Origin: Branchipolynoe longqiensis
Taxonomy: Eukaryota > Annelida > Polychaeta > Phyllodocida > Polynoidae
Reading direction: 5' to 3'
Assembly: GCA_030323885.1 (NCBI GenBank)
Contig: CM059189.1
Location: 46,569,015-46,633,014 of the forward strand
DNA length: 64,000 bases
A program made the translations under genes and the position numbers. Numbering within the stretch: position 1 is the stretch's first letter; every line of letters starts with the position of its first letter. Below, in pieces: positions 11,952 through 54,603 of the stretch. Below the pieces are notes generated by a model. It searched no databases and had not been told where the DNA came from. It saw only the letters and a program-made list of their open reading frames with translations.

Positions 11952-12535
11952 TGCTGCAGTCACACTACGATGCTTCTCGCTGGCGCGCCGCCAACGCGCA
12001 AAATAAGTTATATGCGTCGAGACACGTCCAACTTTTCAGCGGTGTTGGGAAAAAGTTTGGCGTCAACACAGCGTGTTAGTAGCGCCTGTCCAACATGTGT
12101 CGACGCATGCGGAAAAAAAAAAGTTTGGTGCAACGTCATCATATGACCTTAGATGTAGCTAGGGCATAAAACAACAAAGCAACCATTTGGTGCAACGTGT
12201 GGAGACGGCCCTCACACGCCTGTGGTATCTGCCTACCGTTCGCATAATGATCTTCCAGCGCATCCAACGTATCTCGACGTGCGCCTAACGTCCCCGTAGC
12301 ATTCGACCCAGACGTTGGCACACGTCGAAAAGTTTTGTGCAAGCACAAAACTTTTGACGCACCCCGACGCGCCCTGATGATCCTCACCGACCGTCGACGT
12401 CCATCAAGGTGTACCGACATGTACCGACGTGCGCCTAACGCGCGCGTAACGCTTCCCGACATCTCGCCAAAAAGTGACACACGTCGACGCGCGTTGGAGA
12501 GAAGCGTCGTAGTGTGACTCCAGCATTAATGCGGC
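11952..12535. mobile_element. WR-G word-repeat MITE
   Basis: The ends TGCTGCAGTCACACTACGAT and the inverse of TGCTGGAGTCACACTACGAC are strong inverted repeats, and TTA or TA flanks both. The arms carry CG-rich words (CGTCGACG, GCGCCTAACG, CCAACG). The centre is a perfect 13-bp-arm palindrome, AAAAGTTTTGTGC/GCACAAAACTTTT, at 12328-12355. It is interrupted at 12137-12185 by a retroposed tail. It is non-coding. Confidence 0.85.
12137..12185 (+). mobile_element. 49-bp SINE1 tail inserted in WR-G with 13-bp TSD
   Basis: The inserted sequence is only the SINE1 3' tail (ATGACCTTAGATG, then ATAAAACAACAAAGC). It is flanked by a 13-bp direct repeat, TTTGGTGCAACGT, at 12124-12136 and 12186-12198. This is the expected product of target-primed reverse transcription stopping after about 50 bases. 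Confidence 0.85.
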
Positions 12536-12639
12536 AACATTGTGAAAAGCCTGGCAGGTATCACAACGGTGTTGATATTATCATGTCACTCATGAAAATC
12601 TATGCCTACCTATATGAAAAAACACAATTACCTATACAT

Positions 12640-13446
12640 GTGGCTCCTTGCCTGAGAGGTTAGTGCAAAAGACTGCACTTGTCCCACTTGAATTGTAAGT
12701 CTTTTAAACGGTTTACACCAATAAGTGATTTAAATGCTAATAATTACAAACATGCACTTACATATATATATATACACAGGGTAGGTTCAACAACCGTACA
12801 GCGTTTAGCTTGTGTCGTTGGGGTGATGAAAATGGGAAATATTGCGCCTAGAGCGTGACTCGAGCCAACACCTCTCTGCATTCCGAGCCAGTGTGATAAC
12901 CATTACACCACCTAGGCTCCCTGATATCACCACACTACCCACGCCTATTTGTCTATGTGGTTACATGCCTGAGAGGTCAGTGCAGACTACTACACTCGTC
13001 CCCCTGGAATTGTAAGTCTTGTAATGCTGGTAATTACATACATACAGGCAATGCACTAACACATACATACACAGGGTAGGTTCAACAACCATACAGTGTG
13101 TAGCTTGTACAGGATCTTGGTCCAACACCAGTATCATGGGGGTGATGAAAATGGGAAATATTGCGCCTAGAGTGGGACTCAAACCCACATCTCTTTGCAT
13201 TCTGGGCCAGTGTGCTAACTATTACACCACCTAGGCTCCATGATATAACCACACTACCCATGCCTACCTGTCTATGTGGTTACTTGCCTGAGAGGTCAGT
13301 GCAGACTACTACACTTGTAAGGGTTCCAGGTCGCAGCAACCAGTGTCACGGTGGTGATGGGAATGGGAAATGTTGCGCCTAGGGCAGATTTAGGGCCCAA
13401 ACTTCTCGCCATTCTTGGGCTAGTGTGCTAACTATTACACTACTAA
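12640..13446 (-). mobile_element. SINE2 trimer, reverse orientation
   Basis: Three tRNA-like domains on the minus strand (about 12850-12928, 13170-13246 and 13378-13446) are linked by SINE2 body sequence (GGTAGGTTCAACAACC, GAGAGGTCAGTGCAGACTAC). The third domain is more decayed. Spacing is about 320 bp for the first pair and about 205 bp for the second, which implies an internal deletion. Confidence 0.78.
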
Positions 13447-13820
13447 ATACAAACAATGAATTCTTTAATATCGCATCAAGGTTGTCAATGTGACACTGTA
13501 GCTTTATTGTACGATAATGTTAGTATCAAACAGGATTTGCATGCAGTTACTATTACAACTGATCGTTTTATTTATGTATCAAGGAATTGTATGATGCGGC
13601 CGGAAGACCAGTGGTGCTGAAAAGAGATATTATTCAAAGAATAAAATACATTTCAGTAAACAACAAAAATGCCTTAGAATGACTGATGTCAGATCCTTAA
13701 CATTGTGCCCGGTCGGATATAAGTGAGCAAATCAGGGACGCCGTCGAATAATCTAATTCATATCAGTATATAGATCTCCCTTGTTATCCACACCAGTAGA
13801 CGCGCATTTAACAAACATGT
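13447..13820. other. No gene seen
   Basis: AT-rich sequence with no recognised feature. Confidence 0.5.
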
Positions 13821-14082
13821 ATATGAGCCTGTCTCAAAAGGTGATAATTCTTTTTTGTTTGTCCATTGTAACAATTGACACAAAACAGCACAGAAATGGT
13901 TACACTGAAAACACAAGGCCATTTACTTCAAATCAATATGTATTCTATTGGGATTATGAAACACCATGTAAAAAACAAACCAGTTTATCCTGAGCAAATT
14001 CAGAAGCAGATAGTATGTTGATCGTTACAATGGACAAAGTTTCGTCCCATATTGCTTAGCACCTTTTGAGACAGTCTCATAT
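13821..14082 (+). mobile_element. TO MITE, copy O2
   Basis: Nearly the same as O1 (4347-4606), with ATATGAGCCTGTCTCAAAAG at the left and ACCTTTTGAGACAGTCTCAT at the right. Confidence 0.85.
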
Positions 14083-14712
14083 GCATTCACAATTAATGGA
14101 ATTTCAAACATAATTCTTCACAATTCTACTTCATTATTATTTCATTTCCATTCATATTGTCATAATCAGAAAGCCATTGCCAGACACTGGTTTTGGGTAA
14201 TTATTGTGTTTTGTTTCCCCCCAGCTGGGATCTTTGTTAGTGTGGGTTTCTGCTGTTTTGTTGCTACTTTGTTTTGTCATTGTCCAAAGCAGAGAGATGC
14301 CAGCAGAGTCAGTAATTGACAGGTTATGTAATTCTGGAGCCCTCCCTGCGGACACCGATGCTGTAAATTGACTTTTGCATGTCACTGTGGGCCAGATCAA
14401 GGGTAAGCCTATGTTGCTTGATGCCATTGCTCTGTGGCCTGCATTGGGTGACTTTTCATGTGTATATTAGATTTAATTATTAAGCGGTGGGGAAATTTCA
14501 TTTATCAACTACATGTCTCACTAATTCCACGCTTCCTTGCCAAATCCTAATAAAGTGGAGCCTATGATGGCCATTTCCAAATTTCCCAAACGAAGAAGAC
14601 ATTCGCTATTTATAAATGTATATAAATATATATAAGATATATACATAATGAACGTTCCCTTTTACTCCATTATAACCCAAATAGACAAATTATCGATTAC
14701 AATGAAACCAGA
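14083..14712. other. No gene seen
   Basis: A TA-rich patch lies near 14615-14645. No coding or repeat pattern was recognised. Confidence 0.5.
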
Positions 14713-14949
14713 TGGGATGGCTGAATGAGTTAGAGTGTCCGTCTCCCGTGTTTGGTAGACCGTGGGGTCGTGGGTTCGAACCCTGGTCGAGTCAAACCAA
14801 TGACTTAAAAATTTATACTTGTCGCTTCCTAGCAAGGCGCTCAGCATTATTAGGATAGGGCAAGGAGCAGTGGAATGAGGAAGACCAATCGTCCACGATT
14901 GAAATTTCCCCTGCTTAAACAACTAATGGACCAACAACAACAACAAAAA
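14713..14949 (+). mobile_element. SINE1 head with tail type 2, copy S2
   Basis: The head GGGATGGCTGAATGAGTTAG and B box GGTTCGAACCC match SINE1. After TAGGATAGGGCAAGGA it switches to a different 3' end (GCAGTGGAATGAGGAAGACC, then TTTCCCCTGCTTAAACAAC) and a (CAA)n tail. It is the reference copy for tail type 2. Confidence 0.85.
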
Positions 14950-15063
14950 TGCTTAACAAATTAATTACTATGGTTTTAAGCTTGAAGATTTGACCTATAT
15001 CATACATGTTTTCTGATGAGTTGAAATCTAAAATGCCGTAGAAAAGCAGGACTGTTCTTCATA

Positions 15064-15330
15064 ATGCCTCCCTGTCACAATGCATAAGCGTATGCCAACA
15101 TATGTGACCCACGCTGTCATACAGCGGGAATTTTGAACATGCTCAAAAATACTACTTATGCTAAATGTACCCATAACTTGTCTCAACATGCACCGGTGGG
15201 CTGTTAATGAATACTACTTATGCCAAACGTACCCATACACCAGCGTACATCAGCGTACAACAACCTGTTGGTACAAAATCACATACGTTGACATACGCTG
15301 ATGCAATATGGCACAGTGTGACGGGACCTT
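15064..15330. mobile_element. WR-H word-repeat MITE
   Basis: The left end ATGCCTCCCTGTCACAATG and right end CAGTGTGACGGGACCTT are diverged inverted repeats, with TA at 15062-15063 and 15331-15332. Words resemble GCGTATGCC and CGTACCCATA. The centre at 15130-15150 reads ATTTTGAACATGCTCAAAA, matching the core of WR-A and WR-B. Confidence 0.75.
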
Positions 15331-15332
15331 TA

Positions 15333-15475
15333 AGTCACAAATTGCTTGTGGCATGCTTGCGGCGGCCACAAGTTATGCATCGGCAAAACCGCGCGGCGGC
15401 CGTATGGTTGGATACTGTGGCCGTACGGCAATCGCACGTTTTTTTTGCTCGCCGCAAGGGGTTGCGATTTGTTTA
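15333..15475. mobile_element. Short palindromic element next to WR-H
   Basis: AAGTCACAAATTGCTTGTGGC at the left is roughly inverted by GCAAGGGGTTGCGATTTGT at the right. The middle carries CG-rich GGCGGCCGTA words. It lies wedged between WR-H and J3. It probably belongs to the WR group, with the ends less certain. Confidence 0.5.
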
Positions 15476-15483
15476 ACTTGACA

Positions 15484-15838
15484 TTAAAGTTGCATAGTCC
15501 GATGGATTTTGAGTTTCTGTCATTTTCTGAGATAAACATATTATGGTGATCATTATAATCTACCCTACTTTCACTTGAAGTAACTTTTATTTTAAATAGC
15601 TAACTTTTGAGATATTTGAAGTGCAAACAAGCAAAATTAGTTTTGGCAAGCTTGCCAAAACTCTGATGCCATAGGTTTCTGCAGTAATAGGTTCTATTGA
15701 ATTGCCTCAGTTTTCCCTTCTATACGGTGACAAATGTTTACCAAGTGCACCAGTATTTAAGTTAGATATGTAGAATCAAATTGAGATACTTGTTTTGGTT
15801 TTGAAAATTTGATGCTTCATCGGACTATGCAGCTTTAA
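15484..15838 (+). mobile_element. TJ MITE, copy J3 (complete)
   Basis: Begins TTAAAGTTGCATAGTCCGAT and ends ATCGGACTATGCAGCTTTAA, with TTAA at both boundaries and a 355-bp length. It is the best reference copy, with the GCAAGCTTGCCAAAACTCTG interior and the CTGCAGTAATAGGTTCT block. Confidence 0.88.
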
Positions 15839-15974
15839 ACTTGTTTCACAAATCGCAAAGACTTAGGCCGTATAGTAGAGGAACATTGAATGGAAGGAAC
15901 GCAGGTGAAGCATATGGTAAATATAGCCAACAGTCAATGTTTCTGTCATTTCTTCTAAATCTATCACACAGTGG

Positions 15975-16034
15975 CCTTCCTGATAGGACCTTAGATGTTA
16001 CCAGGACGTAAAACTCCAACAACCAACCAACCTT
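15975..16034 (+). repeat. SINE1 tail fragment
   Basis: ATAGGACCTTAGATGTTACC followed by AGGACGTAAAACTCCAACAA and (CCAA)n is the SINE1 3' tail alone. Confidence 0.7.
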
Positions 16035-16245
16035 CGGGTTCCATTCGGTGACTTCAATCATGGGGCAGCCGCAATAAACCTTAAGATTTGTGAACATTTC
16101 TACCGCAGCCCGCAACACCGTACGATTTGTAAAAGAAATCGGATCAGTAGACCACAGACCACAGAACTGTCCAGTGGCAGCATGATATGGGATCTAAGGA
16201 TAAAGCAGGATATCTGGTGAACCTAGTGGATGGAGCCCCATGCTA

Positions 16246-16755
16246 AGGAGTGTAGTGGTCTGCACTGACCTCTCAGGCAAGGAGCCGCATAGACAGGTAG
16301 GCATGGGTAGTGTGTTGAGATCAGGGAGCATAGGTTGTGTAATGGTTAGCACACTGGCCCAGAATGCAAAGAGATGTGGGTTCGAGTCCCGCTCTAGGCG
16401 CAATATTTCCCATTTTCATCACCCCCATGACACTGGTTGCCATTATCATGATCCTGTACAAGCTATGCACTGTATGGTTGTTGAACCTACCCTGTGTATG
16501 TATGTGTACGTGCATTGCCTGTATGTATGTAATTGTAAGCATTACAAGACTTACAATTCCAGGGGAACGAGTGTAGTGGTCTGCACTGACCTCTCAGGCA
16601 AGGAGCCGCATAGATAGGTAGGCATGGGTAGTGTGTTGAGATCAGGGAGCCTAGGTGGTGTAATGGTTAGCACACTGGCCCGGAATGCAAAGAAATGTGG
16701 GTTCGAGTCCCGCTCTAGGTGCAATATTTCCCATTTTCATCACCCCCATGACAGT
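16246..16755 (+). mobile_element. SINE2 dimer
   Basis: Two SINE2 units have tRNA-like domains at about 16330-16402 and 16652-16726, about 323 bp apart. Each has GTGTAATGGTTAGCACACTG and GGGTTCGAGTCCCGCTCTAG. These are the least decayed tRNA-like domains in the window, but they continue directly into SINE body sequence, so they are SINE promoters rather than free tRNA genes. Confidence 0.85.
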
Positions 16756-20290: not shown

Positions 20291-20998
20291 CGAGAAGAAA
20301 AACAAATACAAAATAAAAATTACAAAGAAGAAAGTACTTGAGAACATTAAATATTGCCATGCTCATCAAAATGCCAATACCATAGCCTTCACCAGTAAAG
20401 CGGATGCCACACCTCGCCGAATTGAGGAAATCGAAAGAAACCGAACAAAGTCTGTTGATATCCGGCAAAGTCTGTTTTGTGTCCGTTGCATATCTGTTGC
20501 ATATCCATTGATATCTGTTGATATCCAGCCCGATCCGTTAGAAGTTTTGAACATGCACAAAACTTGGAACCGATGCCGCCAGATTGATGTCTACGTTTCT
20601 TGTCCGGTTTGAGTCTGTTTAGTCCGCTTATCATCTGTTGGCTATCCATTCATGTCTATTTCATGTCCGTTTCATATCCATTCATCCGGCGTCCTTTGAC
20701 CCGATATCGCAACATTTTGACACATTTTAATACATTTTGATACTATCACACCCCAACAGCACTGGACTAGACAATTCTGTTCATTGCTCAATCCGGCATA
20801 GTCTGACACGCACTTAACAGGTTCTGATCAGATTCTGAACAAGTATATTCAACAGTGATACATTTACTTCTGATATCCTTCTGTGTTGGGACAACTTCCT
20901 AACAAGTGCATGGATATCTACTTTGGAAATTAGAATCAAATCTAATAAGTGTTTTGATTTAGAAAACTTGATGCTTTTATTGGACACTGCTGCTTTAA
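20291..20998 (+). mobile_element. TJ MITE, copy J8, split by WR-B copy B3
   Basis: Right-hand TJ sequence runs from 20815 (TAACAGGTTCTGATCAGATT) to the TTAA at 20995-20998. The piece just left of B3 (GCCAATACCATAGCCTTC at about 20373-20390) corresponds to the TJ interior immediately upstream of that point. The copy is diverged and its left TIR is not visible. Confidence 0.7.
20398..20814. mobile_element. WR-B word-repeat MITE, copy B3
   Basis: The left end AAGCGGATGCCACACCTCGC and the right end with CCGGCATAGTCTGACACG are diverged WR-B termini, with TA at 20396-20397 and 20815-20816. Arms are filled with ATATCCGTTG and TGTCCGTTT words. The centre at about 20541-20566 reads GAAGTTTTGAACATGCACAA followed by AACTT, matching B1 and B2. 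Confidence 0.8.
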
Positions 20999-28940: not shown

Positions 28941-29278
28941 ACGTCAGTTTTAGGATTAGGGGAAGCGTGAATATGAGTTAATCCTACCAATATCAGGATT
29001 GTGAAAACCATTGACGATTATAGACTGATATTGAATTGAGTTGAGATTTATTGAACCACAAACATGTATTAAGGTATGGCTTTCAAAAAGGGGTGATGTT
29101 CCAGTCGGCCCGTCCTGATATGACCTTAGATGTTGCTAGGACGTAAAACAACAACAAACAAATAAATCTTCCAAATCTTCTAACGTTAATTCATCAACCG
29201 TTGGTTCAGTACCAGAGACCAAACTCACTTCCGCAATGCTACGTCACATAATTAGTATATTTCCTATGACTAATAGTA
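28941..29278. other. SINE1 tail fragment; otherwise no gene seen
   Basis: At about 29105-29165 there is an isolated SINE1 tail (CGTCCTGATATGACCTTAGA, ending in (CAAA)n). The rest carries nothing recognisable. Confidence 0.6.
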
Positions 29279-29719
29279 ATAGCTCAGTCACATTACTTCT
29301 TTCGACGACATTGCAACCACAAAAATGGGGTTGCTACAACTGGTCGCAAAATGGTCCTCAGTGGTTGCAAGGAGGGTGCAAGGACGTTGCAGATACTACA
29401 CTAAAACCCTCCTTGTGACCAAAATGCAGAGGTCGACAACAATTGCTTTGGTCGCAAAAAGGGTGCAAGGAGGTGGGCTATTTGGTCCAAAGTTGTCGCA
29501 AAGTGGTCGCAAAGTGGTCCCAAAGTGGTCGCAAAGTGGTCGTAAAGTTGTCGCAAAGTGGTCGCAAAGTGGTCGCAAAGTGGTCGCAAACTGGTCGCAA
29601 ACTGGTCGCAAACTGGTCGCAAACTGGTCGCAAACTGGTCGCAAACTGGTCGCAAACTGGTCGCAAACTGGTCGCAAACTGGTCGCATGCGGTCTCAAGC
29701 CAGAGTGTGACTGGGGCTC
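29279..29719. mobile_element. WR-C word-repeat MITE
   Basis: The left end AGCTCAGTCACATTAC and the right end GTGTGACTGGGGCTC are inverted, with TA at 29277-29278 and 29720-29721. About 29501-29690 is a tandem array of the 11-bp word GGTCGCAAACT or GGTCGCAAAGT. The left arm carries diverged copies of TTGCAACC and GGTTGCAAGG. Open frames on both strands follow the 11-bp word and are not genes. Confidence 0.82.
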
Positions 29720-29863
29720 TAGAATGTGCAATTATTAACGCTGGGGCAACCCATTGGACATTGTTCAAAGGTAAATAAATCCCTTCCTTCAACAGGCGCT
29801 TATACACCATGCTGGGAGTATGGCACTTGTCGCTCGGCTTTGTGACACATGCGGCGTTCCATA

Positions 29864-30454
29864 AGGCCCAGTCAGACCTTACTGTACTGAGTACCGGACA
29901 CCACCAGACAAAGACTTGTCTAGTCCGGTGGTGTCCAGTGTCGAACTGTTGCAATGGCCGCCAGGCCGGACAAGAAACGTACATTAACTAATAGCCAATG
30001 GATGAGAACCAGATGAGAACCGGATGGCAAACGAGTCTCAAACGGATGGACCGGACACCAAACGTACACCAACCGGACACCAACCGGACACCTACCGGAC
30101 ACCTACCGGACACCTACCGGACTGTTCACAGATGCGCCAAATACCGATGGACCGAATTCCCGCAGCACCGTCAACAGACTCTTCAGGATACAAACCGGAC
30201 ACTTAACGGATGAGTAACAGAGATGAAATGGACAAAACAGACTAAACGGACTTAAAATGGACACCAACCATACACCGGTGTCCGGTACAAGTTGTGTGCA
30301 TGTTCAAAACTTGTACCGGACACTACCGGACACCACCGGACAGATGAACGGACATGCCGGATACCAGCCGTATATAAACCATACATTGCCATATTTCACC
30401 AGACAGTGTCCGTTTTCTATCCAGTTCCTCAATCCGGTGAGGTCTGACTGGGGC
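29864..30454. mobile_element. WR-B word-repeat MITE, copy B1
   Basis: The left end AGGCCCAGTCAGACCTTAC and the right end GTGAGGTCTGACTGGGGC are inverted, with TA at 29862-29863 and 30455-30456. CCGGACACC words fill the arms. The core palindrome at 30284-30318 (GGTACAAGTTGTG, loop, CAAAACTTGTACC) lies near the right end, the mirror of its place in B2, so B1 is inverted relative to B2. Confidence 0.85.
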
Positions 30455-30456
30455 TA

Positions 30457-30710
30457 TAACGGCGCGTATGTAAAACAGGAGATTGTCGTCCATGTATTTC
30501 CCCGGCCTGTTGTGTACTGTGGGTGACTTCAGTGTTTGGGAAGTGCCGCTGATTTTCTATTTGGTGCCGGTGATATTTTAATTCAGACCACACCCCAAGC
30601 TAAAGCAGAAGGGGTGTTAACCCTAACCACCCGCCATCCCTTGCAGGAGCGTCGCACGTGCACTGCACGTTGTTAGCAACAGACATCTAATGCTCAGCAT
30701 ACACTACCCG
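30457..30710. other. No gene seen
   Basis: No recognisable feature. Confidence 0.45.
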
Positions 30711-31911: not shown

Positions 31912-33167
31912 CAACAAAGGCCATATTCATGACGAAAAACTAGTTGTGTCTATTCTGTCAATCTTGTCAATTACATTCACATATCTACCTGAAAATTTGC
32001 ATAAAATTCCGATATTGTTAGATACATGTTAAATGATAGCAGCAACGATATCTGATTGAATATTGAAGTGGTTTGACTTGTGTCAACTCATGTTTTTTTC
32101 AAGATGTATAATCGTGACATGCCCTACTCGATCACAGTATTTGTGAATAAGTTATCTTGTCTTGACTATGTTAGTGGCCCTTTAAATTATATAGCCGATC
32201 GTGCAAGTGTTTTTCAAGATGTACAATAATGACATGTCATATTCGAGCATGGTCATTGTGATAGATTGATTGGTGGTTTCTTTATGCCATGTCGGCAGCA
32301 TAGGCCATATTCACGGCGAGAATTGTTTGTTTTTTATTCAACCATCGCTTTTACAGGATGCAAAAGCACAGAATCAATTTTGTGTCAGTACACCATATAA
32401 AAAGCTCACAGTTGCATAATTTGTGGCTAAAGGAAATAGGATTAAGATAAAAGTTAAAGGTTGTTAATTGATCTAATTTGTTTAAGGACTATATGTATAA
32501 GGGTCATTACGCATGTTGGCACTGTCAACATGGATAATTTACTGGCGGGAACACATGCACTACTTTTTCTCGGCACTACTTTCTTGCCCTATTTCGCAGT
32601 CACTCACTGCTGACCCGCACTTCACTTTCACGCTGGCCTGCCTCCTGGCAAGTCGCTTCATCCACCCACCCACCCGATATTAAGGAGGTAAGGGGTAGGG
32701 GTTGAGGGCTGCTGGTTCTGGGCTAGGTCCTCTCTGTCATCTCTTTCTTGCCCGCTACATTTCCCAAACCTAACAACATTTAACTAGTCATTTCTCTAAT
32801 CACTTAAACTTGTTCGATACGCCTGACACTGATCATGACATCCTTTAACCTTGCTGGTACCCTATGCGATACCTCAAAACTTCATTGTCAATTAATTCTT
32901 GACACCATACATGATACACGATATCGATATGTTCTCCAGACAAGCCCGACCTGCCTGCAGGTTATGTTCTCCAATAAATTTTGTTATTTCCATATCTGTC
33001 TTGTCTCCAGTTTGTTCCCGGATGTAAATTGTGAATAAGTAAAGTTGTGTTAACCATGCTAGTTGCATTTTAAAGTGAAAAGCCTATTGTGAAGGATATG
33101 ACGAAGAGTGATCTCACCCTACTTCTGGTGGTGGAAGCCAACCAGGTCGCAGATTCAATCCTTCCTA
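31912..33167. other. No gene seen; short repeated tail motif
   Basis: GATTGATTGGTGGTT followed by AGGCCATATTCACGGCGAGA (about 32266-32322) matches the inverse of a sequence at about 47565-47632 that ends in (AATC)n. It is probably a retroposon tail. The remainder carries nothing recognisable. Confidence 0.5.
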
Positions 33168-33835
33168 AAGCCCAAGTCATACATACCCGGATCAGGGGCC
33201 GGACGAGCCCCGGACCCCCATCCGGGGGGGTCCGGGGCGATCCGGGGTGATCCGTGGCTCGTCCGTGGCTCTTCCGTGCCGACACCCCTGATCCGGCCTG
33301 ATCCGGGGCTCGTCCGGCGCCGTCCGGGCTCACCCCCGGATGTTTTTAAATGTTTATAACATCCGGGGCGGTCCGGGGGATTTTGTGATCCGGGCTCAAT
33401 CCGGCCTGATCCAGCCTGATCCGGGGGTGGTCCGGGCGTGGTCCGAAAATTTCAGGGGTGGTCCGGACCATCCCCGGACTATCCAGGACTACTCCCGGCC
33501 TAGCCACGGACCACTCCCGGACGGCCCCCCGCAAGACCGGGGATGATCTGGGATAGTCCTGGGGTGATCCGGGATAGTCTGGGGGTGGTCTGGGGCAGTC
33601 CGGGGGTGGTCCGGCCTCGTCCGGGGCCGGTCTGGCCCAGTCCGCGGGCATTCCGGGGGTGATACGGGGCGGTCCGGGGCTCGTCCGGGGCTCGTCCGGG
33701 AAAGTGTGACTGCGAGGCAAAAATCAATGAAAACAGTGATTTTATCCGTGACGGTCCGGGACAGTCCTGGCCATTGATCCATGGGTGGTCCGGCTCAAAA
33801 TCCGGGGCTGGTCCGGCTATGTGTGACTGGGGCTT
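33168..33835. mobile_element. WR-D word-repeat MITE
   Basis: The ends AAGCCCAAGTCATACATACC and the inverse of AAGCCCCAGTCACACATAGC are matched, with TA at 33166-33167 and 33836-33837. The arms are dense with GGTCCGGGG and GATCCGGG words. The centre at 33334-33368 is a hairpin with perfect 11-bp arms, CCCCGGATGTT/AACATCCGGGG. Proline/arginine-rich frames on the minus strand are a by-product of the word. Confidence 0.87.
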
Positions 33836-34195
33836 TACGCGACTCAAGGAACACTAATTCAGTAGACGCAGATTAGGTATCATACCTTTGCAGTATTGTG
33901 CAAGCTACAAAGTGTCGTTAATATAGTGCTGCCTTAAGTCCTTCAGGCATACACTCACAGATTTAGACTAGGATGTCAGGTGGCTCCTACTCCATCACGC
34001 TGAGGATGCTGTCTGGCTTACTAACATCCGATTGCCTTGTGGTTAGAGTGGCCGGCATTCAAAGGGGATATGCTGGGTTCAATCACCGGCTGGGTTAAAG
34101 CAAAGACTTGCACAATTGGTAATAATCAGCTTGTCTACTATCATTCTATGGAGCATACTTCACAATAATTACGAACATTAATTCCAGTACCCTGA
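33836..34195. other. No gene seen
   Basis: No recognisable feature. Confidence 0.45.
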
Positions 34196-38420: not shown

Positions 38421-38958
38421 CATTGTGTGCAGCACAACCCATTCTGAACATAAAAAGAAAGTGAGGGAGCAAACTATGCTGTATAGTGTACAGCATAGGT
38501 ACTCAACATAGTGCAAGATAGAGTGTGCAGTAATGTACACTAGTGGTTAAATCATATGCTGTGTTTGTATATCAGTTAGATTTGGTTTTATTAATGGTTA
38601 GTCTTTTAATAGTGCCATGTTGTGCATGTATATTCGTTTATATTGTGTGCAATGCTGGTTGAAGATGTAGTTATTCAGTACAGGTAGTGCGTCTTGAATG
38701 TTATTATGTCATTGAGTTATAATAGTTGTTTGTCAAAATGTGGAAGGGGGGGAGGGGTCTAGGGGCAAAGTCATACATCCCTATCTATATAGGGTTATAT
38801 TTCAAGAGTTTGTAGATGCGCTTCCTACTCTGTTAAGTAATGCATTATAGTATTCTTTCCCTCTGTTCCATAATGAATGCCTGGGAGCCTTTCATTTCAA
38901 CTAATCCCATAATGCTTTGAGCGGTACTTCGGGTAAGGCACTTTCAGAGTCTCAGATA
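38421..38958. other. No gene seen
   Basis: It may continue the retroposon ending at 38290 on the minus strand, but no coding motif was found. Confidence 0.4.
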
Positions 38959-39668
38959 AAGGGGCTGTCACATTAGGTTTTTTTTGCAGGAGCATACGGC
39001 GGCGTAGGCACGTTATGTCATATATGGCGGCATACGCCGCCATACGCCACCATATGCTATGCATACGCTATGCATAAGCTATGTATACGCTATGCATAGG
39101 CTACGCATACTCTATGCATATGCTACGCATACACTATGCATATGCTATGCATACACTACGCATACGCTATGCATACACTATGCATATGCTATGGATATGC
39201 TATGCATAGGTCATCATGTGCCGGCATATGCCGGCCTATGCCGTTATACGCCGCCATACACTTTCTCCCGTCCGTCTGTCCAAATTTTGTTGTGCATGCT
39301 CAAAAGATATCGACCTATGGGAGCGTATGGTTCATATGCTACTCATACGCTACTCATACGCTGGTGTACGCTCCTCGTACGCCGGTGTACACTCCTCGTA
39401 TGGTAGGGGTGCGCCGCCGTAGGTTACGCATATGCTTAACTTGCGTCACTGGCATATCTCTAGCGTATGTAGCGTATGCATAACCTACGAGTTACATATG
39501 GGAGCATATTCCTAGCATATGCACAGCATATGCACAGCGTATGCACAGCGTATTCCAAGCATATGCCACAGGTCTCGACATTGATCTTGACTCATACGCT
39601 ACTCATACGCTCATACGACGTAGGTATTCAATACGCTCCCGCCATACGCCGTAATGTGACAGGGCCTT
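38959..39668. mobile_element. WR-A word-repeat MITE, copy A3
   Basis: The left end AAGGGGCTGTCACATTAGG and the right end TAATGTGACAGGGCCTT are inverted, with TA at 38957-38958 and 39669-39670. Long runs of TACGCTATGCA and TACTCATACGC words fill the arms. The core lies at about 39281-39310 (CAAATTTTGTTGTGCATGCT). It is larger than A2 because of word expansion in both arms. Confidence 0.87.
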
Positions 39669-39770
39669 TACAAATGCTTAATCCGATGCTTTCAAGTTAC
39701 TCCCATGCATAATATGTATAACATGACTTTGATCGCTAAGGCATACCCTACTTTCCTTAGTACAGTACAA

Positions 39771-43456: not shown

Positions 43457-43811
43457 TTAAAGTTGCATAGTCCGATGGTTTTGAGTTTCTCTCATTTTCG
43501 GAGATAAACATATTAGGTTGTTTGTTATAATCTACCTTACTTTAGTTTGAAGTAACTTTTATTTTAAATCGCAAACTTTTGAGATATTTGAAATGGAAAC
43601 AAGCTAAATTAATGTTGGCAAGCATGCCACAACTCTATCACCATAGGCTTCTGCAGTAACAGGTTCTATTAATTGACTCAATAGTCCCTTCTATGTGCTG
43701 GTAAATGTTTAATAAGTGCATTAGTATCTAAGGTACATATGTAGAATCAAATCTAGATAATTGTCTTGTTTTTGACAAATTTGATGTTTTCATCGGACTA
43801 TGCAGCTTTAA
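43457..43811 (+). mobile_element. TJ MITE, copy J4 (complete)
   Basis: Begins TTAAAGTTGCATAGTCCGAT and ends ATCGGACTATGCAGCTTTAA, with TTAA at both boundaries. Its interior CTGCAGTAACAGGTTCT provides the empty-site sequence for B3. Confidence 0.88.
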
Positions 43812-44220
43812 ATGGCAAGGGGAATGTTAGGAGAAAATGGCTGAGAAGATTGTATTTCACCAAAAACGGCGCCTTTCAGCATTGGTGGGTGAATAGTAGC
43901 ACAGTGACACTAGAGGCAATTAGATCAAAATAGAATTACAGGTAGTAAACTGAAACTGTAGCTTTGGGCCCCCATGCTTAGCGCTGCCTCATTGTGTATT
44001 TTAATGTCAGCCATTTTTCCCAATCATTTATAATGTAGCAGCAACACGACACTGACGCATATTTATATTTTGCATTTAATGGGCTTGATGGGTAGTTACA
44101 GTAGTTTCTATGCAAAATTAGAATGATTAACAGTGAGATCAATTTACCAGATGCTTAACCCTGTCGTTCTAGTGTTAGGATACTTGGGCTGAGTAGGATG
44201 GCTCAACAATATCATAGGGC
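43812..44220. other. No gene seen
   Basis: No recognisable feature. Confidence 0.45.
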
Positions 44221-44662
44221 GTAATTGATTAATCAACTCGGGTCACCCAAGCCACTTTTTGGCGCATGCGCACATCCTACAGACTCGGGTCGAATAATCG
44301 AATATGCTTCTCCGCGCTCGGGGTGGACAAAATTATTTTTTAATAACCGTTAAAAAACTACAGCAAAATAGGATTTAAAGTAATTTATGATGGCCTCGAT
44401 TAGCTATATTTCCATTTCATTAATCTAAGTTATTCTTTTAAAAAAACATGTATGACTGGTACTGGTAGTTGTTATCCTGCAGGACGGTACCAGCGCAAAT
44501 GTGACGTCATCGCTCGTAGCCAATCCCAGCTATGAGGTGGGTTACTTGGGTCGGATCGTTTTGCATACGGCACGTGTATTTGTCGACTCTACTCGCAGTG
44601 TTCGATTTGAAATTCTGACGACTCGGGTGACCCGAGTCACCCGGGTCATGTTAATCGATTAC
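44221..44662. mobile_element. WR-Y word-repeat MITE
   Basis: GTAATTGATTAATC at the left is inverted by TTAATCGATTAC at the right. ACTCGGGTCACCC words occur in both arms. TTTTTGGCGCATGCGCACA at about 44255-44273 resembles the CATGC core of WR-A and WR-B. It has no TA-AAGSCCC type terminus, so it is only loosely part of the group. Confidence 0.6.
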
Positions 44663-44999
44663 ACTCATAGTGTTTCTAGTAGGTGTTGTCTGTCTCAAAG
44701 GCTATTATTGGCCAACGATTTGACACGTCGCATCTGCGGCCTGTGCTGATGTCAGCTTGGATATTACGGTAGGTGGCGCCTGCATCGCAACAGTGCTGTG
44801 GGAGATAGAAAGTTCAGGTAGGGAGCACCAAGCGGCCATGGCTAAATACAAGATCAGTAATGCCTATAGGATGCACAAGGTGGTGACATATGTCATTTTG
44901 CAGTGTCCAGCTTACGTTGATAGATGGAACCGTAAGGTGTCGATGTGTAAAAATATAGGGTCTTTCGGTCATGATAGACGAGCCTGGAATCATATTAAT
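44663..44999. other. No gene seen
   Basis: A 105-codon frame starts here (44757) and enters repeat X. It has no recognisable domain. Confidence 0.4.
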
Positions 45000-46661: not shown

Positions 46662-46663
46662 TA

Positions 46664-47323
46664 AAGCCCCAGTCAGACCTCACCGGATTGAGGAACCAGA
46701 CAGAAACCAGACACTGTCCGGTGAAATACGGCAATGTACGGTTTATATATGGTTGGCATCCAGTGGGTCGGTTATCTGTCCGGTGGTGTCCGGCGGTGTC
46801 CGGTACAAGTTTTGAACATGCGCAAAACTTGTACCGGACACCGCCGGACCGAGGTGTATGGTTGGTGTCCGTTTTAAGTCTGTTTAGTCCGTTTTGTCCG
46901 GTTCATGTCCGTTACCCATCCATTATGTCACCGGTTTGCTTCCTGCAGAGTCTGTTTACGGTGCTGCGGGAATTCGGTCCGTCAGTTTTTTTATCTGTTT
47001 TCGGCGCGTCCATGATCAGTCCGGTAGGTGTCTGGTAGGTGTCCGGTTGGTGTCCGGTTGGTGTCCGGTCCATCCGTTTGACATTCGGTTTTCACCCGTC
47101 GGTTGACCGTTGCTTGTCCGTTGTTATCCAGTGTTGTCCATTTATCGTTCGTTTATCGTCTGTTTATTGTCCGGTGGCTATTTGTTAATGTACGTTCCAT
47201 GTCTGTTGAAAGCATAACATTTCGACACATTTCGATACATTTTGACACCGGACACCAACGGACTAGACAATTGTTTGTCCAGTGGTGTCCGGTACTCAGT
47301 CTGGGAAGGTCTGACTGGGCTTT
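46664..47323. mobile_element. WR-B word-repeat MITE, copy B2
   Basis: The left end AAGCCCCAGTCAGACCTCAC and the right end GGTCTGACTGGGCTT are inverted, with TA at 46662-46663 and 47324-47325. The core palindrome at 46803-46834 has perfect 12-bp arms, GTACAAGTTTTG/CAAAACTTGTAC, around AACATGCG. The right arm is long and filled with GGTGTCCGGT and GTCCGTT words. It is non-coding. Confidence 0.88.
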
Positions 47324-47325
47324 TA

Positions 47326-48667: not shown

Positions 48668-48800
48668 ATTGGTTGGTTGGTTGTTGGAGTTTTATGTGCT
48701 GGTAATATATAAATATATGGTCATATGAGGACGGATACAGACTTGTGACAGTCCGCACTCATGGTAACGTTTCAATGCTGTCCCACTGGGAAATCAGGCC
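48668..48800 (-). mobile_element. SINE1 copy S14, cut by WR-A copy A4
   Basis: Tail GTTGGAGTTTTATGTGCTGG, then body to GGGAAATCAGGCC, where copy A4 begins. The rest of the SINE is not found on the far side. Confidence 0.8.
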
Positions 48801-48803
48801 ATA

Positions 48804-49135
48804 AAGGGGCTGTCACATTAGGGTTTTTTTGCGGGAGCGTATGGCGGCGTAGGCGCGTTACGTCATATACGTCGGCATACGCTGTATACGCTACTCATAC
48901 GCTACGCATACACTACTCATACGCTACTCATACGCCGCCAGATGCCGCCAGATGCTGGCTTATGAGGCATACGCCGCCATACGCTTTCATAAATCCGTCC
49001 GTCCACATTTTTTTGTGCATGCTCAAAAAATCTCGACCTATGAGAGCGTATGGCCCATACGCTACTCATACGCCGACATACGCTCCTCATACGCCGGCAT
49101 ACGCTCCTCGTACGCTAGGGGTACGCCGGCATATC
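48804..49135. mobile_element. WR-A word-repeat MITE, copy A4 (right end missing)
   Basis: Starts TA then AAGGGGCTGTCACATTAGGG, followed by TACTCATACGC words and the core at about 49004-49028 (TTTTTTTGTGCATGCTCAAA). It breaks into a G-rich tract near 49135 without a right TIR. Confidence 0.82.
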
Positions 49136-49300
49136 GGGGAGGGGATTGGCAGGGAAGGGGGTTGGTGGGGGAGGGGGTACTTTGCGATTCTTTGAACCAA
49201 CAAATGACCACGATGAGCGTCCCAACTCATCCCAACCTATCATTGTGCACGCAAGTCAGTACTCATCTAATATGACCTTAGACGTTGCTAAGACATAAAA
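49136..49300 (+). repeat. G-rich tract and SINE1 tail
   Basis: GGGGGAGGGGG-type sequence at 49136-49180, then a SINE1 tail (about 49245-49300: CACGCAAGTCAGTACTCATC, TATGACCTTAGACGTTGC). Confidence 0.6.
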
Positions 49301-50059: not shown

Positions 50060-50128
50060 TTTATCCATCATCATCATCATCATCATCATAAATCCTTTAA
50101 CTGTGACGGTCGTTGGGGCACCACAGAT
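50060..50128 (-). mobile_element. 3' end of an older non-LTR element, split from 52746-53062
   Basis: On the minus strand this reads the last residues of an RT polyprotein (VVPQRPSQLKDL), a stop, and an (ATG)n tail (50066-50090). It continues the coding at 52746-53062 on the other side of the CR1/L2-like insertion. This means the first ten or so codons of the long plus-strand frame starting at 50103 are antisense host-element sequence. Confidence 0.75.
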
Positions 50129-52745
50129 GACCTTACCAGGAAATATTTACTGCGATATCACTGACCATCTACCCAACTTTATAACAATTCAATCTCACAA
50201 CCCCATTAAAAAACAGGACAGACCCATTATTAGAATATTTGGGGAGAAAAACATGGCTAAATTCAAAGACCTTATTGAAACCTCAGACTGGAAAGAATAC
50301 TACAAAGCAACTGAAGTAAACAAAGCCCTAACCATCTTCTACCAGATTTATAACACAGCATTTAATGCAGCTTTCCCACTAACAAAACTATCAAGACAAA
50401 GAGCAAAAGATAAAAGATGGATCACATCAAGCCTTAAAACTTGTATAGCAGTAAAAGATAGATACTTCAAAACATACAAACTCAACCCAACAGCTGAAAA
50501 CCGAATAAAACACACAAAATATAAGAATATACTAATCACTTGTCTACGATCAGCAGAGGAAGGCTACTATAAAGAACTAGTCAGTAACGAGAAGCAAAAT
50601 CTTTATACGCTCTGGAAAATCTTTGGAGACATCATCAACCCACATAAAGCAAAAATGAAAAATCAAATTGACAAGCTAATCTATAACAATAAAACAATGA
50701 CAAACAATGAAGATATCGCCAGCACATTAAATGAACACTTCTGTTCAATTGGTGAAAAACTTGCAGCAAAACACACCAGTAATAGCATAGCACACAAGCA
50801 ATATCTTAAACACCCAAATTCACATAGTTTTTTTCTTAGTCCCACCAATGAACAAGAAACCCTAGAAGAAATAAAGAAACTAAATCCTAATAAGTCAAGC
50901 GGACATGACAATATCTCGCCAAAAATAATCAAAGAGTGTGACACTCTACTCGCACCATCTATCTCCCACATAATAAACCTATCATTTGCAAATGCTACTG
51001 TTCCTGAAAATCTCAAAGTTGCAAAAGTAATACCCATCCATAAGAAAAATGAGAAATACCTAGTTGATAACTACAGGCCAATCAGCCTACTCAGTACCCT
51101 AAACAAATTAATGGAAAAACTAATGTACAAAAGAGTTTACCAATTTCTTAACAAATACAAAATATTATACAAATACCAATTTGGATTTAGAGAGAATCAC
51201 TCAGCAATAATGGCTCTGACTGAAATCTTAGACAACATACTACAAGACCTTGAAAATGGGAAACATGTTGCAGGAGTCTACTTAGACCTGAGCAAAGCAT
51301 TTGATACCGTAGACCATGACATCCTACTCTCAAAACTTAGGCACAACGGAATTCGAGGCCAGGGACTTAAATGGTTTGAGAGTTACCTAAGCAATAGAAA
51401 GCAATTTACATACATAAACGGTAAACGATCCAAGCTAAACTCAATCAGCAATGGTGTCCCCCAAGGTTCTGTCCTGGGACCTCTCCTATTTTTGATCTAC
51501 ACAAATGATATAGTCAACTGTACAAAACAAGATGTCAAAACAAGGTTATTTGCAGATGATACCAACGGCTTCATAACCTCAAATTCACCCAAACAACTAA
51601 AACATTCAATTAAAACATTCCTTTCAGACATATTTACATGGTGCAATGATAACAAATTAACAGTAAACCTCAACAAAACATGCTACACAATATTTAAAAG
51701 CAGAAGTACAACCATTCCTGATTACCTAAACAACATAAAGATAAACAATAACACAATAAAGAGAGTCCCTTCTGTGAAATACCTAGGTATAATTCTAGAT
51801 GAGAACCTCAACTGGGATGAACATATTGATGACTTAAATAATTCAATAATTAAAACGGCTAACTCATTTAAAATAATCAGACGACGGGTACATGAGGAAA
51901 ATAAAAAATTACTATACTATGCATACGTTTACTCCAAAATCCAGTATGGTATAGAGGTGTATGGGAGAGCCAAATCATCAACCCTAAAAAAGATACAAAC
52001 ACAACAAAACAGAGCCCTGAAAATACTGTATAGCAAAGACTATCTCACCCCAACTAAATCACTTCATAAAGACCTGGACTTACTTATGGTAACTGACATT
52101 TATAAAATATACATTGCAAAATTTGTTTACAAGCAAAAGAATGGCCTCCTCCCTGAAATATTTGATAATCTCTTCAAAGAAAACAATCAGGTCCATTCCC
52201 ATAACACACGACAGATAAATAACATACATCACAAACGCACTAGAAACAAATATGGCAAAATAACAACTGAAAACCAAGGAACCAATATCTGGAACTCAAT
52301 ACCAGTAGAGATTAGAAACCTTCAAACTTTGAAAAACTTCTGTAAAAAACTAAAGATAAGCTATCTCAATGCATACTAAATCGATTACCAGTAAAGAATA
52401 TATATAATACCCCTATTAACATACATGCAAAATAACTACTGATACTGCATGTAAGTACATGAATCCATGACACAATATCCATATAATATTCCTATCATTA
52501 CTTTGTTTTTTACTAACTGTGAAGAGACGCATCAGTATCTCATCATAATCATTAGTTAAAAATGTAGCTTAAGTTTAATAATTTGTTATTGTCATCACTT
52601 GTTCATTCACATCATGGAGACCAGCTAGATAAGCATCGCTTTTCTGGGATCCTTTCTGTCTGTAAGGAATTTGTATGCATTTATTGTATCACCTCAATTT
52701 ATTGTAAACATACCTTGCAGAGAGTTAAAATAAAAGAATTGAATT
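50129..52745 (+). mobile_element. CR1/L2-like non-LTR retrotransposon, 5'-truncated
   Basis: This is the best-preserved autonomous-type element in the window. It contains the RT frame, about 365 bp of 3' sequence and a short (TTGAA)-type tail (TAAAAGAATTGAATTGAA at 52730-52747). It lacks its 5' UTR and most of the endonuclease domain. It is inserted into an older, oppositely oriented LINE. A second copy of its 3' end lies at 55748-56392 and has about 70 bp (about 55978-56050) that this copy lacks. Confidence 0.9.
50130..52379 (+). CDS. Reverse transcriptase of non-LTR retrotransposon (ORF2-type, N-terminally truncated)
   Basis: The product would copy element RNA at a nicked chromosomal target. 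The frame is open from 50103 to 52379 (758 codons from the first ATG), but the first ten or so codons are flanking sequence. Numbering from that ATG: ITDHLPNF at 19-26 is the last catalytic motif of the AP-type endonuclease, the rest of which is missing. NYRPISLL starts at 323. YLDLSKAFDTVDH has its catalytic Asp at 395. NGVPQGSVLGP starts near 450. LFADDTNG holds the catalytic FADD at 483-486. VKYLGIILDENLNW lies near 560 and HNTRQ near 700. Full CR1/L2-type proteins also carry a complete endonuclease, so this copy cannot be autonomous. RT motifs are intact with no stop or frameshift, which suggests a fairly recent insertion. Clade (CR1, L2 or Jockey-related) needs a tree. Confidence 0.9.
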   Translation, partial: TLPGNIYCDITDHLPNFITIQSHNPIKKQDRPIIRIFGEKNMAKFKDLIETSDWKEYYKATEVNKALTIFYQIYNTAFNAAFPLTKLSRQRAKDKRWITSSLKTCIAVKDRYFKTYKLNPTAENRIKHTKYKNILITCLRSAEEGYYKELVSNEKQNLYTLWKIFGDIINPHKAKMKNQIDKLIYNNKTMTNNEDIASTLNEHFCSIGEKLAAKHTSNSIAHKQYLKHPNSHSFFLSPTNEQETLEEIKKLNPNKSSGHDNISPKIIKECDTLLAPSISHIINLSFANATVPENLKVAKVIPIHKKNEKYLVDNYRPISLLSTLNKLMEKLMYKRVYQFLNKYKILYKYQFGFRENHSAIMALTEILDNILQDLENGKHVAGVYLDLSKAFDTVDHDILLSKLRHNGIRGQGLKWFESYLSNRKQFTYINGKRSKLNSISNGVPQGSVLGPLLFLIYTNDIVNCTKQDVKTRLFADDTNGFITSNSPKQLKHSIKTFLSDIFTWCNDNKLTVNLNKTCYTIFKSRSTTIPDYLNNIKINNNTIKRVPSVKYLGIILDENLNWDEHIDDLNNSIIKTANSFKIIRRRVHEENKKLLYYAYVYSKIQYGIEVYGRAKSSTLKKIQTQQNRALKILYSKDYLTPTKSLHKDLDLLMVTDIYKIYIAKFVYKQKNGLLPEIFDNLFKENNQVHSHNTRQINNIHHKRTRNKYGKITTENQGTNIWNSIPVEIRNLQTLKNFCKKLKISYLNAY

Positions 52746-53062
52746 GAATCTCCGCTGCCCTCTCGGACATGCAAATTCCAGTTCTGTTCATTCCCTGATG
52801 TTTTCTTCCCACCGCTTCCTTTGTCCGCCTTCTCTTCTTTGCGCTTTTATTGTCCCTTACAAGATGGTTTTGGCCAGACCTGATGGGGAAATATGGCCAT
52901 ACCACTGCAATTTACATCTCATCACGATTGATGGGAAATTGTCATGTGGTCCAACTGCCTGTTGGATCTTGGAAAGAACTTCCTTATTGGTAACGTGGTC
53001 TTTATATGTGCTGTGTAGTATAAGAGGAAACGTGTCCTTATTGGCAGTTGACCCTCGCAATA
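52746..53062 (-). mobile_element. Older non-LTR element, RT C-terminal relic
   Basis: On the minus strand: YKDHVTNKEVLSKIQQAVGP, then RCKLQWYGHISPSGLAKTIL, then after a frameshift near 52870-52890 an RKRW-like and WTG segment, and ERAAEIQ at the edge. This is the C-terminal region typical of many invertebrate endonuclease-reverse transcriptase elements. It is interrupted by the CR1/L2-like element, and its last residues are at 50060-50128. Confidence 0.82.
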
Positions 53063-53831
53063 GGCTCGCAATACGACACTAGTAGAAGCAGGTTGCAAAT
53101 TGATTACACCACTAACGCCAGACGGGCTGTTGTTTGGTGTTGCATACCATATTTAAACTGCCCCTGCTTACAGTGATGCGCGAAAAGGAAGAGAGGAGGC
53201 GGGGGTGGAAATAAAAGGTTTTTATTTTCGCCTCAGAAAGCATACAGGGGATACAGGGTAAACGAGGAATAGAAGTAAATAATGAACAATGGATAAAATA
53301 AATGAAGAGCGGAGTAAATATAGAAACAGAGTTCAAATGTCAGTGGAGTGAGGGGGTGCCGAGGAGCCCTCCACCGGAGGAAGAGAAAGTAGGAGGAGTG
53401 TAGGGTGGGTGGGTGGTGAAGAAAGGAGAGAGCTGGGAGACGGCAGGAGGGCGAGTGCCTGAGGGAGGCCAGGGGGCGGCCTTATAAGGGGAGAGGGAGG
53501 GGCGACAGCAGGTGAGTGTGAAAGCTGCCGGCCCGGGGGAGGGCGACAGGTGGCGAGCAGCGGCGTCGGGTGAGGCGTGAGCGCCGCGCGACACGGAGGG
53601 CGGGGGAGGGGGCGGCGCGCCGCGCCGTCTGCCGAGGTGAGAAAGCAGCGCGACAGCGCGGGGTGGGGGGAGGGTCTCTTCCTCTCCTCGCATCAAACGT
53701 AATGCTTCGCATTACGACCAATGGGGCTCCCCAGTTGAACACAGAGATTCTAGTCATTAGAAGTAGTAGCTTGTTCATTCTGGAGGCTAGTTGCTTCATG
53801 AGTGTGCTCATCAGATGTCCAAGTTGGCGAC
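53063..53831. other. GC-rich stretch, no gene supported
   Basis: 53395-53690 is G-rich on the plus strand (GGCGGCGCGCCGCGCCG near 53610). Frames of 92-118 codons on both strands are Pro/Ala/Arg-rich without a domain. A short palindrome around TTTTTATTTTCGCC near 53218 may mark an element end. Confidence 0.45.
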
Positions 53832-54105
53832 TCAGAGTAAGTAGGTAGGCTGATCACTGAACGTCATCATAGCTTTTGTTTTATTTGAGGAAATTTTGAG
53901 TTCCAAATCACGACAGGTGTCACTAATAAGGAGCAAGACATCCACTGTGAGGAGGGGCGTGTCCCTGAGGCTTGAGCAGACGACAGTGATGTCATCTGCG
54001 TAGCATAGGATCATGGCGTGTTCAAGTTTGCGCTTGGTAATGCCTACTTTGAGTTGGCTTATGAGGGCGGAAACTACAGCATTAAAAAGGAATGGGCTGA
54101 GGACA
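53832..54105 (-). mobile_element. RT palm-domain relic of another non-LTR element
   Basis: The minus-strand frame reads VLSPFLFNAVVSALISQLKV, then HAMILCYADDITVVCSS with the YADD catalytic motif, then LELKISSNKTKAMMTF. These are RT motifs B, C and D. The YADD motif and sequence differ from the FADD element at 50-52 kb, so this is a separate family. It is truncated upstream where WR-B copy B4 begins and stops at 53832. Confidence 0.82.
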
Positions 54106-54603
54106 GTTTCTAATCCGGTGTGATTCTGTAACGGACGGTAACGGACGGGCAACAGATGGTAACGGACAGGTAACAGATGGGTAACAGACGGTAACGGACG
54201 GGTAACAGATGGTAACAGATGGGTAACAGACGGCAACGGACGGTAACGGTTGATAACGTATCTAGTGATCAACGGACAATTCAGTATACAAAAAGAACTA
54301 TAACGAACGGCAATGGACGTGTAATGGATATATAACAAACGGTAATGGATGGTAACAGCTTGGAACGGATGGTAACGGACGGGAACAGATGTGGAACCGA
54401 CAGGTAATGGATGGTAACAGACGGTAACCGATAACAACCGCACACGTCAGTCTGGCACAATTCGTTACAAGTTTTGTGCATTCTCAAAACTTGTAACGGA
54501 TTGGGCCGGATATCAATGGATATCAACGGATATCAATGGATATACAATGGATATAAACTGGACTTTGACGGATATCAACAGACTTTGTTCGGTTTCTTTC
54601 CGT
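54106..54603. mobile_element. WR-B word-repeat MITE, diverged copy B4
   Basis: The arms are filled with GGTAACGGACG and GGTAACAGATG words at the left and GGATATCAACGG words at the right. The core palindrome at 54465-54496 has perfect 12-bp arms, TTACAAGTTTTG/CAAAACTTGTAA. The right arm closely matches the left arm of B3 in reverse. Neither end shows a complete terminus. The right one is lost where SINE1 copy S16 begins. Confidence 0.75.

Follow-up and report, generated by a model that had tools for sequence, protein, structure and literature searches.

A dyad-symmetric core shared by word-repeat MITE families with GTCACA-type ends in Branchipolynoe longqiensis

Families of miniature inverted-repeat transposable elements (MITEs) are normally sorted by their interiors and are held to be unrelated if these differ. 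Elements of the PIF/Harbinger superfamily are characterized, in the sections of the literature cited here, by short terminal inverted repeats (TIRs) and TTA/TAA target duplications (PMC2213677, PMC2836001), with TIRs of 14–25 bp (PMC2213677). In the CMITEs of Acropora corals, families differ less in the interior than in the TIRs, and the authors suggest an interior role in transposition (PMC2872659). Within PIF/Harbinger, MtPH-A6-4 of Medicago has subterminal arms built of repeats (PMC2213677). Here, we analyze a 64-kb stretch of the genome of the polynoid annelid Branchipolynoe longqiensis (the window; GCA_030323885.1, contig CM059189.1, positions 46569015–46633014, in an assembly of 1.85 Gb and 1914 contigs), in which ten elements, A1–A4, B1–B4, G and H, have arms of repeated short words and carry a common core, an 18-bp dyad with the inverted half-sites TTTTGnnC. 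This core is genuine, highly abundant and associated with a single type of transposon end, and the elements that carry it are probably nonautonomous PIF/Harbinger (Tourist-like) MITEs.

The CMITEs provide a precedent for this plan in another superfamily, as their interior is conserved across families. In the part of the report cited, they differ from the elements studied here in their length of about 100 bp, 75 bp of which form the conserved interior, in their TTAA duplication and in being piggyBac-like, and neither word arms nor an 18-bp dyad are described there (PMC2872659). The elements in the window have triplet flanks and AGGCCC ends rather than TTAA and the piggyBac-like CC[C/T]T ends. 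MtPH-A6-4 resembles them in its repeat-built arms; however, its repeats are 60-bp units in one subfamily, and the section cited gives no core common to families (PMC2213677). Among the papers listed by literature searches, none was seen to describe the plan of a shared dyad core in PIF/Harbinger, and a search for CTGTCACA in the context of transposon ends returned one unrelated paper. A preliminary description of this DNA knew of no described MITE group with this plan; the plan is nevertheless not entirely new, since the coral CMITEs keep a conserved interior between differing TIRs, as far as the cited part describes them (PMC2872659).

The ten core-bearing elements of the window are:

A1, 1–238, forward strand: family A, truncated by the edge of the window so that only the right part is present; core 2–19; right end of the AAGGGGCTGTCACA type.
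A2, 236–678, forward strand: family A, both ends; core 442–459 (TTTTTAGCATGCACAAAA); arms of 206 and 219 bp.
A3, 38957–39670, reverse strand: family A, both ends; core 39288–39305; arms of 365 and 331 bp.
A4, 48802–49145, reverse strand: family A, one end not found (that coordinate is approximate); core 49011–49028.
B1, 20396–20817, forward strand: family B, eroded ends; core 20545–20562, 149 bp to the near end.
B2, 29861–30458, reverse strand: family B; core 30292–30309, 149 bp to the near end; stem-loop.
B3, 46662–47325, forward strand: family B; core 46810–46827 in a 27-bp perfect stem with an 8-nt loop.
B4, 54110–54612, reverse strand: family B, ends not found (boundaries approximate, by eye); core 54472–54489.
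G, 11949–12528, forward strand: TTA on both flanks (included); core 12333–12350 (TTTTGTGCAAGCACAAAA).
H, 15062–15332, forward strand: core 15131–15148 (TTTTGAACATGCTCAAAA), 69 bp to the near end; the H core recurs at similar spacing in L050, a locus fetched from the same genome.

Several lines of evidence establish the core. In the window, TTTTGARCATGCRCAAAA with up to three mismatches has 19 strand matches at 10 sites, as opposed to a mean of 0.44 strand matches in 100 dinucleotide shuffles. The dyad signatures TTTTGnnCnnGnnCAAAA and TTTTGNNCNNGNNCAAAA (12 fixed letters, at most one mismatch allowed) lead to the same places, the latter hitting exactly the ten A, B, G and H sites in the 64 kb and the former no window site beyond these ten cores. 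Genome-wide, the exact core occurs in 15,387 copies and its reversed control in none. Thus, window shuffles, genome counts and the signature scan rule out chance, and the preliminary description, which had placed a core at all ten sites and asked whether it exceeds chance, is borne out on both points. When trimmed elements of different families are compared (nine of the ten copies, without A1), 24 of 27 pairs have their best 18-mer match at the core; this match lies elsewhere in A3–H, B3–G and G–H, and single pairs with G are borderline against 60 shuffles. Scans of viral contigs for the core and the TIR gave 9 and 11 matches, respectively, none with core and TIR at element spacing, and we take these matches as chance.

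Among 15 hand-picked representatives of the core, two of which are poor forms, T2–T4, A9 and A15–A17 are present in all 15, T1, G5, C8 and C14 in 14, A6 and G11 in 13 and A7 in 12. Positions 10, 12, 13 and 18 vary most in this set, and the centres CAAG, CAGG and CATG all occur. In MAFFT alignments, invariant columns are more frequent in the core than in the flanks, i.e., 14/18 versus 95/253 in B1–B4 (p=0.001), 16/18 versus 147/274 in A2–A4 (p=0.002) and 15/18 versus 90/164 on the 3' side of A1–A4 (p=0.016), with p values that serve as a guide given few and related copies. The inner ten letters also resemble a p53-type half-site, which we take to have the form RRRCWWGYYY.

The core is associated with a particular transposon end. 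The ends of the window elements resemble TAAAG[GC][GC]C..GTCA[CG]A; AGSCCCNGTCACA ends flank most full copies on both sides, in agreement with the short TIRs of PIF/Harbinger, and the end form TAAAGSCCCNGTCACA has 21,908 exact occurrences genome-wide versus 26 for reversed controls. For comparison, loci numbered with an L were fetched from the same genome, centred on a core, an end or a transposase. The core-centred sample comprises the first 41 core places listed, in 40 loci. The end-centred sample comprises the first 30 listed places of TAAAGSCCCNGTCACA, one end form only, i.e., 30 loci and 28 elements with the pairs L077/L078 and L087/L088 counted once (27 elements if L084 and L085, which are separated by 2.2 kb, belong to the same element); its loci L071 and L075 overlap the core-centred L029 and L034. 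A GTCACA-type end (at most two substitutions) lies within 750 bp of 40 of the 41 exact cores compared to 4 of 198 controls from the same loci, and both ends lie within this distance in 29/41 compared to 0/198. At window positions away from cores, 243 of 2,751 have an end and 78 of 2,751 have both, a background that we attribute to coreless elements there. Looser end tests (a listing with up to four substitutions and a one-substitution scan without control) agree but are weaker.

The reverse approach, starting from ends, gave a core with at most three mismatches in 18 of the 28 elements (21 of 34 end entries). Three further elements, L094, L096 and L098, are recovered at two mismatches with a wider consensus (best shuffle three); with L085, which is also added, 22/28 have a core form, and the core therefore accompanies several kinds of words. 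The wider scan missed L073, L080, L081 and L085, which the end finder had cut short. The remaining elements are L072, L082 (core seemingly broken off halfway), L084, L086 (four mismatches), L087 (three mismatches) and L093. The words found with the core are GCGTATG (A), ACCGGAC/AACGGAC (B), ACGTCG/ACGCGC (G), AACGTA/ACGTCA (K), CCTATGC (P), ACGTATG (Q) and AACGTAG (E), in addition to those of H; the letters K, P and Q were assigned in this analysis. Arms of entirely different words had been proposed initially. Several word families indeed exist, but GCGTATG-type words are common to H and A, and B consists of related subfamilies.

Three window elements have the same kind of ends as the core-bearing elements:

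C, 29277–29721, strand not assigned: no core.
D, 33166–33837, strand not assigned: stem-loop at 33334–33368; no good core.
E, 57357–57760, strand not assigned: no core in the window copy.

The best fits to the dyad signature in C, D and E have 5, 3 and 5 mismatches of 12, respectively, and in the 18-mer comparison no pair with C, D or E is clearly above shuffles (lowest are B4–E with 8/60, H–C with 15/60 and B1–D with 19/60). Elsewhere in the genome, the D-word relative L086 has the four-mismatch core form, and the E-word relatives L094 and L095 carry the core.

The position of the core depends on the family. It lies at 24–37% of element length in B, at 29% in H and at 68% in G, and is central only in complete A copies, so that the "at or near the middle" of the preliminary description holds for the latter alone. 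For the 53 cores of which both ends were identified, the median length of the shorter arm is 145 bp, and for 79 cores the quartiles of the distance to the nearest end are 124, 165 and 214 bp. Folding also differs. Compared to shuffles, folding is far better in B2–B4 and G and moderately better in H (z −2.8), whereas A2 (z −0.3), A3 (+1.2), A4 (−1.4) and B1 (−1.1) fold no better than most shuffles; A1 was not folded. Because the hairpin is strong in B2–B4 and G and absent or weak in B1 and A2–A4, the common feature is a dyad-symmetric sequence and not a stem, and a hairpin as the shared feature is abandoned. Foldback elements, which we take to include TU of sea urchin and FB of Drosophila, presumably also have arms of short repeated units. 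A3 is like them in having partly inverted word stretches of 64–75 nt across the core (64 nt at 81%); however, the inverted ends of B2, B3 and G match over only 28–38 nt, and the arms do not form one long inverted repeat.

The target duplication is likely 3 bp, although this is not settled for all families. A script joined the flanks of candidate elements assuming a 3-bp duplication and searched the fetched DNA for the resulting empty site. Spanning matches were found for 16 joined candidates, 8 of which do not decide the duplication length; empty sites fitting 3 bp were found for L041, L060, L065 (one copy mutated), L067 and L069, and also for F1 (TTG), a window MITE of another branch introduced below. 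A likely 3-bp duplication and the G-rich ends point to PIF/Harbinger. The AGGCCCNGTCACA TIR resembles GGCCAGTCACAATGG, which we take to be the end of mPing. A TA duplication with a TIR beginning AAGG was also considered: it is compatible with the flanks of A2, A3, D and E and with a large part of the end-centred sample. The five L-locus empty sites fitting 3 bp speak against it, as do the rare triplets ATA, TCA and TGA, each of which matches once. A TA duplication may nevertheless apply to some copies. In L052 (1620–2564) and L092 (1503–2086), TAA stands on one side and TTA on the other, and the empty sites are without a plain 3-bp duplication. Overall, the elements are like PIF/Harbinger and its Tourist-like MITEs (mPing/Ping, Harbinger3_DR) in that five of their empty sites fit a 3-bp duplication, mostly TWA, and in that DDE_Tnp_4 and Myb-like genes of this genome lie in elements with related ends. 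They differ by the internal dyad across families, the word-repeat arms and the many nonmatching TAA/TTA flanks.

Coding Harbingers were sought with a PF13359 search of the genome, which gave 150 scored matches of 5,155 candidates. L099 contains a DDE_Tnp_4 exon, and L103 and L104, taken upstream of DDE matches, encode Myb_DNA-bind_4 proteins. In L105–L107, the order is TIR AGCNGNGTTYACACGG, word arm, GGCGGAAGTG, ATCTGCGCATG and ATGGCGGA, the presumed transposase start, and the leader motif lies 148, 156 and 146 bp from the TIR in L105, L106 and L107, respectively. L099 has the same leader motif and start, with its TIR not reached; in the L104 stretch no transposase start was seen. Among the nine transposase loci examined, the TIRs seen beside DDE or Myb-like genes are AGCNGNGTTYACACGG and not AGGCCCNGTCACA, i.e., the coding elements have a different but similar end. 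L100, L101 and L102 have THAP-domain stretches upstream of DDE_Tnp_4 matches, a makeup that we take to be that of ISL2EU-type transposons; as candidate partners they were discarded, no gene-flanking AGGCCC ends being found. The leaders of L099 and L105–L107 contain, before the presumed transposase start, GCGGAAGTG, TGCGCATG(C) and AANATGGCGG-like stretches, which resemble the ETS, NRF1 and YY1 sites of animal promoters.

Two window MITEs belong to the branch of these coding elements:

F1, 5964–6237, strand not assigned: AGCCNTGTTCACACGGGC-branch MITE flanked on either side by TTG (included), with an empty site that fits 3 bp; lacks the core.
F2, 10128–10681, forward strand: MITE of the AGCCNTGTTCACACGGGC branch; ATCTGCGCATG at 10233–10243.

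The ATCTGCGCATG of F2 is the leader motif that precedes the presumed transposase start in L099, L105, L106 and L107. TIR and leader motif of F2 match L106 and L107, whereas F1 shares the TIR only. The motif lies 105–125 bp from the TIR at three noncoding places, i.e., F2, L055 and L044/L093 (one place). In L105–L106 and L106–L107, similarity is higher in TIR and motif than in the arms; in L105–L107 this is less clear. Arm identities are 0.63 (L105–L106), 0.60 (L106–L107) and 0.78 (L105–L107), compared to about 0.50 for shuffled sequences. Thus, in the F branch, an end and a leader motif with changing arms are shared with coding elements. F1 and F2 also share an internal palindrome of their own, GTARACTACCTCG..GAGGTGGTYTAC (6080–6106 and 10528–10553). 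F2 and an element Y had been listed as carrying looser forms of the core; with 4 and 3 mismatches of 12, respectively, and with F2 matching the transposase leader of a different Harbinger branch, neither is retained. Y (44180–44690) has inverted ends of the GTAATYGATTAA type, judged by eye, and carries TTTTTGGCGCATGCGCACA close to one of them.

We suggest, with a probability of roughly 0.4, that the core is an inherited Harbinger dyad that is bound by a dimer and likely began as a regulatory site of the transposase. The elements would share short AGGCCCNGTCACA-type ends, most likely a 3-bp duplication and, in most families, one internal dyad usually 70–240 bp from one end. This dyad would have come from parental Harbingers and would bind a protein as a dimer; its distance to the end would be about that of the leader in related coding Harbingers (146–156 bp, just before the presumed start codon), and it would most likely have begun as a regulatory site of the transposase gene. 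The words between end and core may turn over fast, and ends and core would therefore be what different families still share. In this model the F branch, with its end, leader motif and changing arms, serves as the template for the GTCACA branch, the elements of which would likewise be moved by such a Harbinger. The core would then function as a dyad protein-binding site, more likely derived from a leader and possibly a third site for transposition. The preliminary description had proposed either that the families descend from a common ancestor and had their arms replaced or that the core has a selected function; ends and core common to different word families, and a core more invariant than its flanks, favor this proposal. 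Altogether, its observation is partly confirmed and its interpretation partly supported.

A number of observations weigh against this proposal. No core is present in the nine transposase loci fetched (20.9 kb), among which no coding element with GTCACA ends and core was seen. The leader motif lacks TTTTG/CAAAA half-sites and is 4 mismatches of 12 away from the dyad, so that the link between leader and dyad is one of position rather than sequence. In L103, a TIR-like stretch and a presumed start of the transposase are present, but the leader motif is missing. The distance from core to end varies, mostly 171–239 bp in A (328 in A3) and 74–149 bp in B, and, relative to the oriented core, the near end can be on either side, upstream in B and downstream in P. 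The two inner variable pairs of the dyad show no covariation beyond shuffles (0.20 and 0.18). As for the duplication, the empty site of L052 does not fit 3 bp and that of L092 is ambiguous; flanking triplets are identical in only 20 of 39 end pairs from core-centred loci and window (TTA 10, TAA 7, and ATA, TCA and TGA once each), 11 of the 39 being TAA/TTA or TTA/TAA; and in the end-centred sample, in which one end was picked as TAA, triplets agree in 3 of 16 pairs and 7 of 16 are TAA/TTA.

A possible but doubtful alternative holds that the core is a third cis-site for transposition, recognized by the Myb-like ORF1 protein or the transposase, which would thereby place the complex on the element, and that MITEs without it do not amplify. 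The core is kept in elements that have no gene to regulate, in most families seen, its conservation exceeds that of the flanks in A and B, and its symmetric outer half-sites suit a dimer. Such sites have parallels in the cited sections of work on other Harbingers: the Myb-like protein of zebrafish Harbinger3_DR recognizes a 9-bp subterminal motif (PMC9710019), and efficient mPing transposition needs internal sequence (PMC10288884, citing other work). By contrast, each element has a single core, which lies closer to one of its ends; the window elements C and E are without it, and so are the nine transposase loci, though none of these shows GTCACA ends beside the gene. If selection is set aside altogether, the core could be a passive relic of a common ancestor, left outside expanding and contracting word arrays. 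Shared descent of the families by their ends agrees with such a history, as does the expectation that word arrays change by slippage or unequal exchange; we nevertheless regard it as improbable, because invariant columns are more frequent in the core than in the alignable flanks of A and B and because the half-sites persist in families whose arms match no better than shuffles.

That a cruciform with the core at its tip is required for, or results from, element formation is very improbable: the 27-bp perfect stem of B3 and the folding of B2, B3, B4 and G far above shuffles, and of H somewhat above, speak for it, but A2–A4 and B1 carry the core and fold no better than most shuffles. That AT-flanked palindromes converged by chance, or that the host factor NRF1 has its site on TTTTGAACATGCACAAAA, can hardly be upheld. 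An NRF1-like TGCGCATG is present in Harbinger leaders and in F2, where it is part of the transposase leader. For the main core, however, chance is opposed by the genome counts and by the lack of any further dyad match in the window, and the NRF1-type half site initially noted in it is dropped: the CATGCGCA form occurs in 3 of 100 listed exact cores, positions 10, 12 and 13 in the NRF1-like part are among the most variable, and CAAG, CAGG and CATG centres all occur. The NRF1 consensus has a GCGCATGCGC-like centre, which the core does not show.

The window contains further repeats. MITE family X (8702–9055, 15484–15843 and 43457–43816, and also L100 at about 1210–1400) has ends of the form TTAAAG(T/C)TGCATAGTCCGATG, flanked by TTAA on either side as far as read, and at its centre a palindrome, AGTTTTGGCAAGCTTGCCAAAACT, that is diverged in 43457–43816 and loosely dyad-like, with 4 mismatches of 12. 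Positions 50259–52379 are a LINE reverse transcriptase frame, the nearest listed protein being 68% identical over the full length and another 94% over 59%. A long tandem array of 'CCCCTCTTTAAGGTTCAGATATGACTATG'-type units spans about 6330–7990.

The internal dyad and the ends tie together seemingly unrelated and very abundant MITE families, which probably form one Harbinger lineage. This offers an easy criterion for classifying MITEs, and it can be tested directly whether their amplification requires an internal protein-binding site as well as the TIRs. More speculatively, such a Harbinger lineage might be defined by two TIRs and one internal dyad recognized by an element protein, the rest being rewritable by expansion of short words. 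If true, a three-site lineage would let many MITE families of unrelated interior use one mobilizing machinery.

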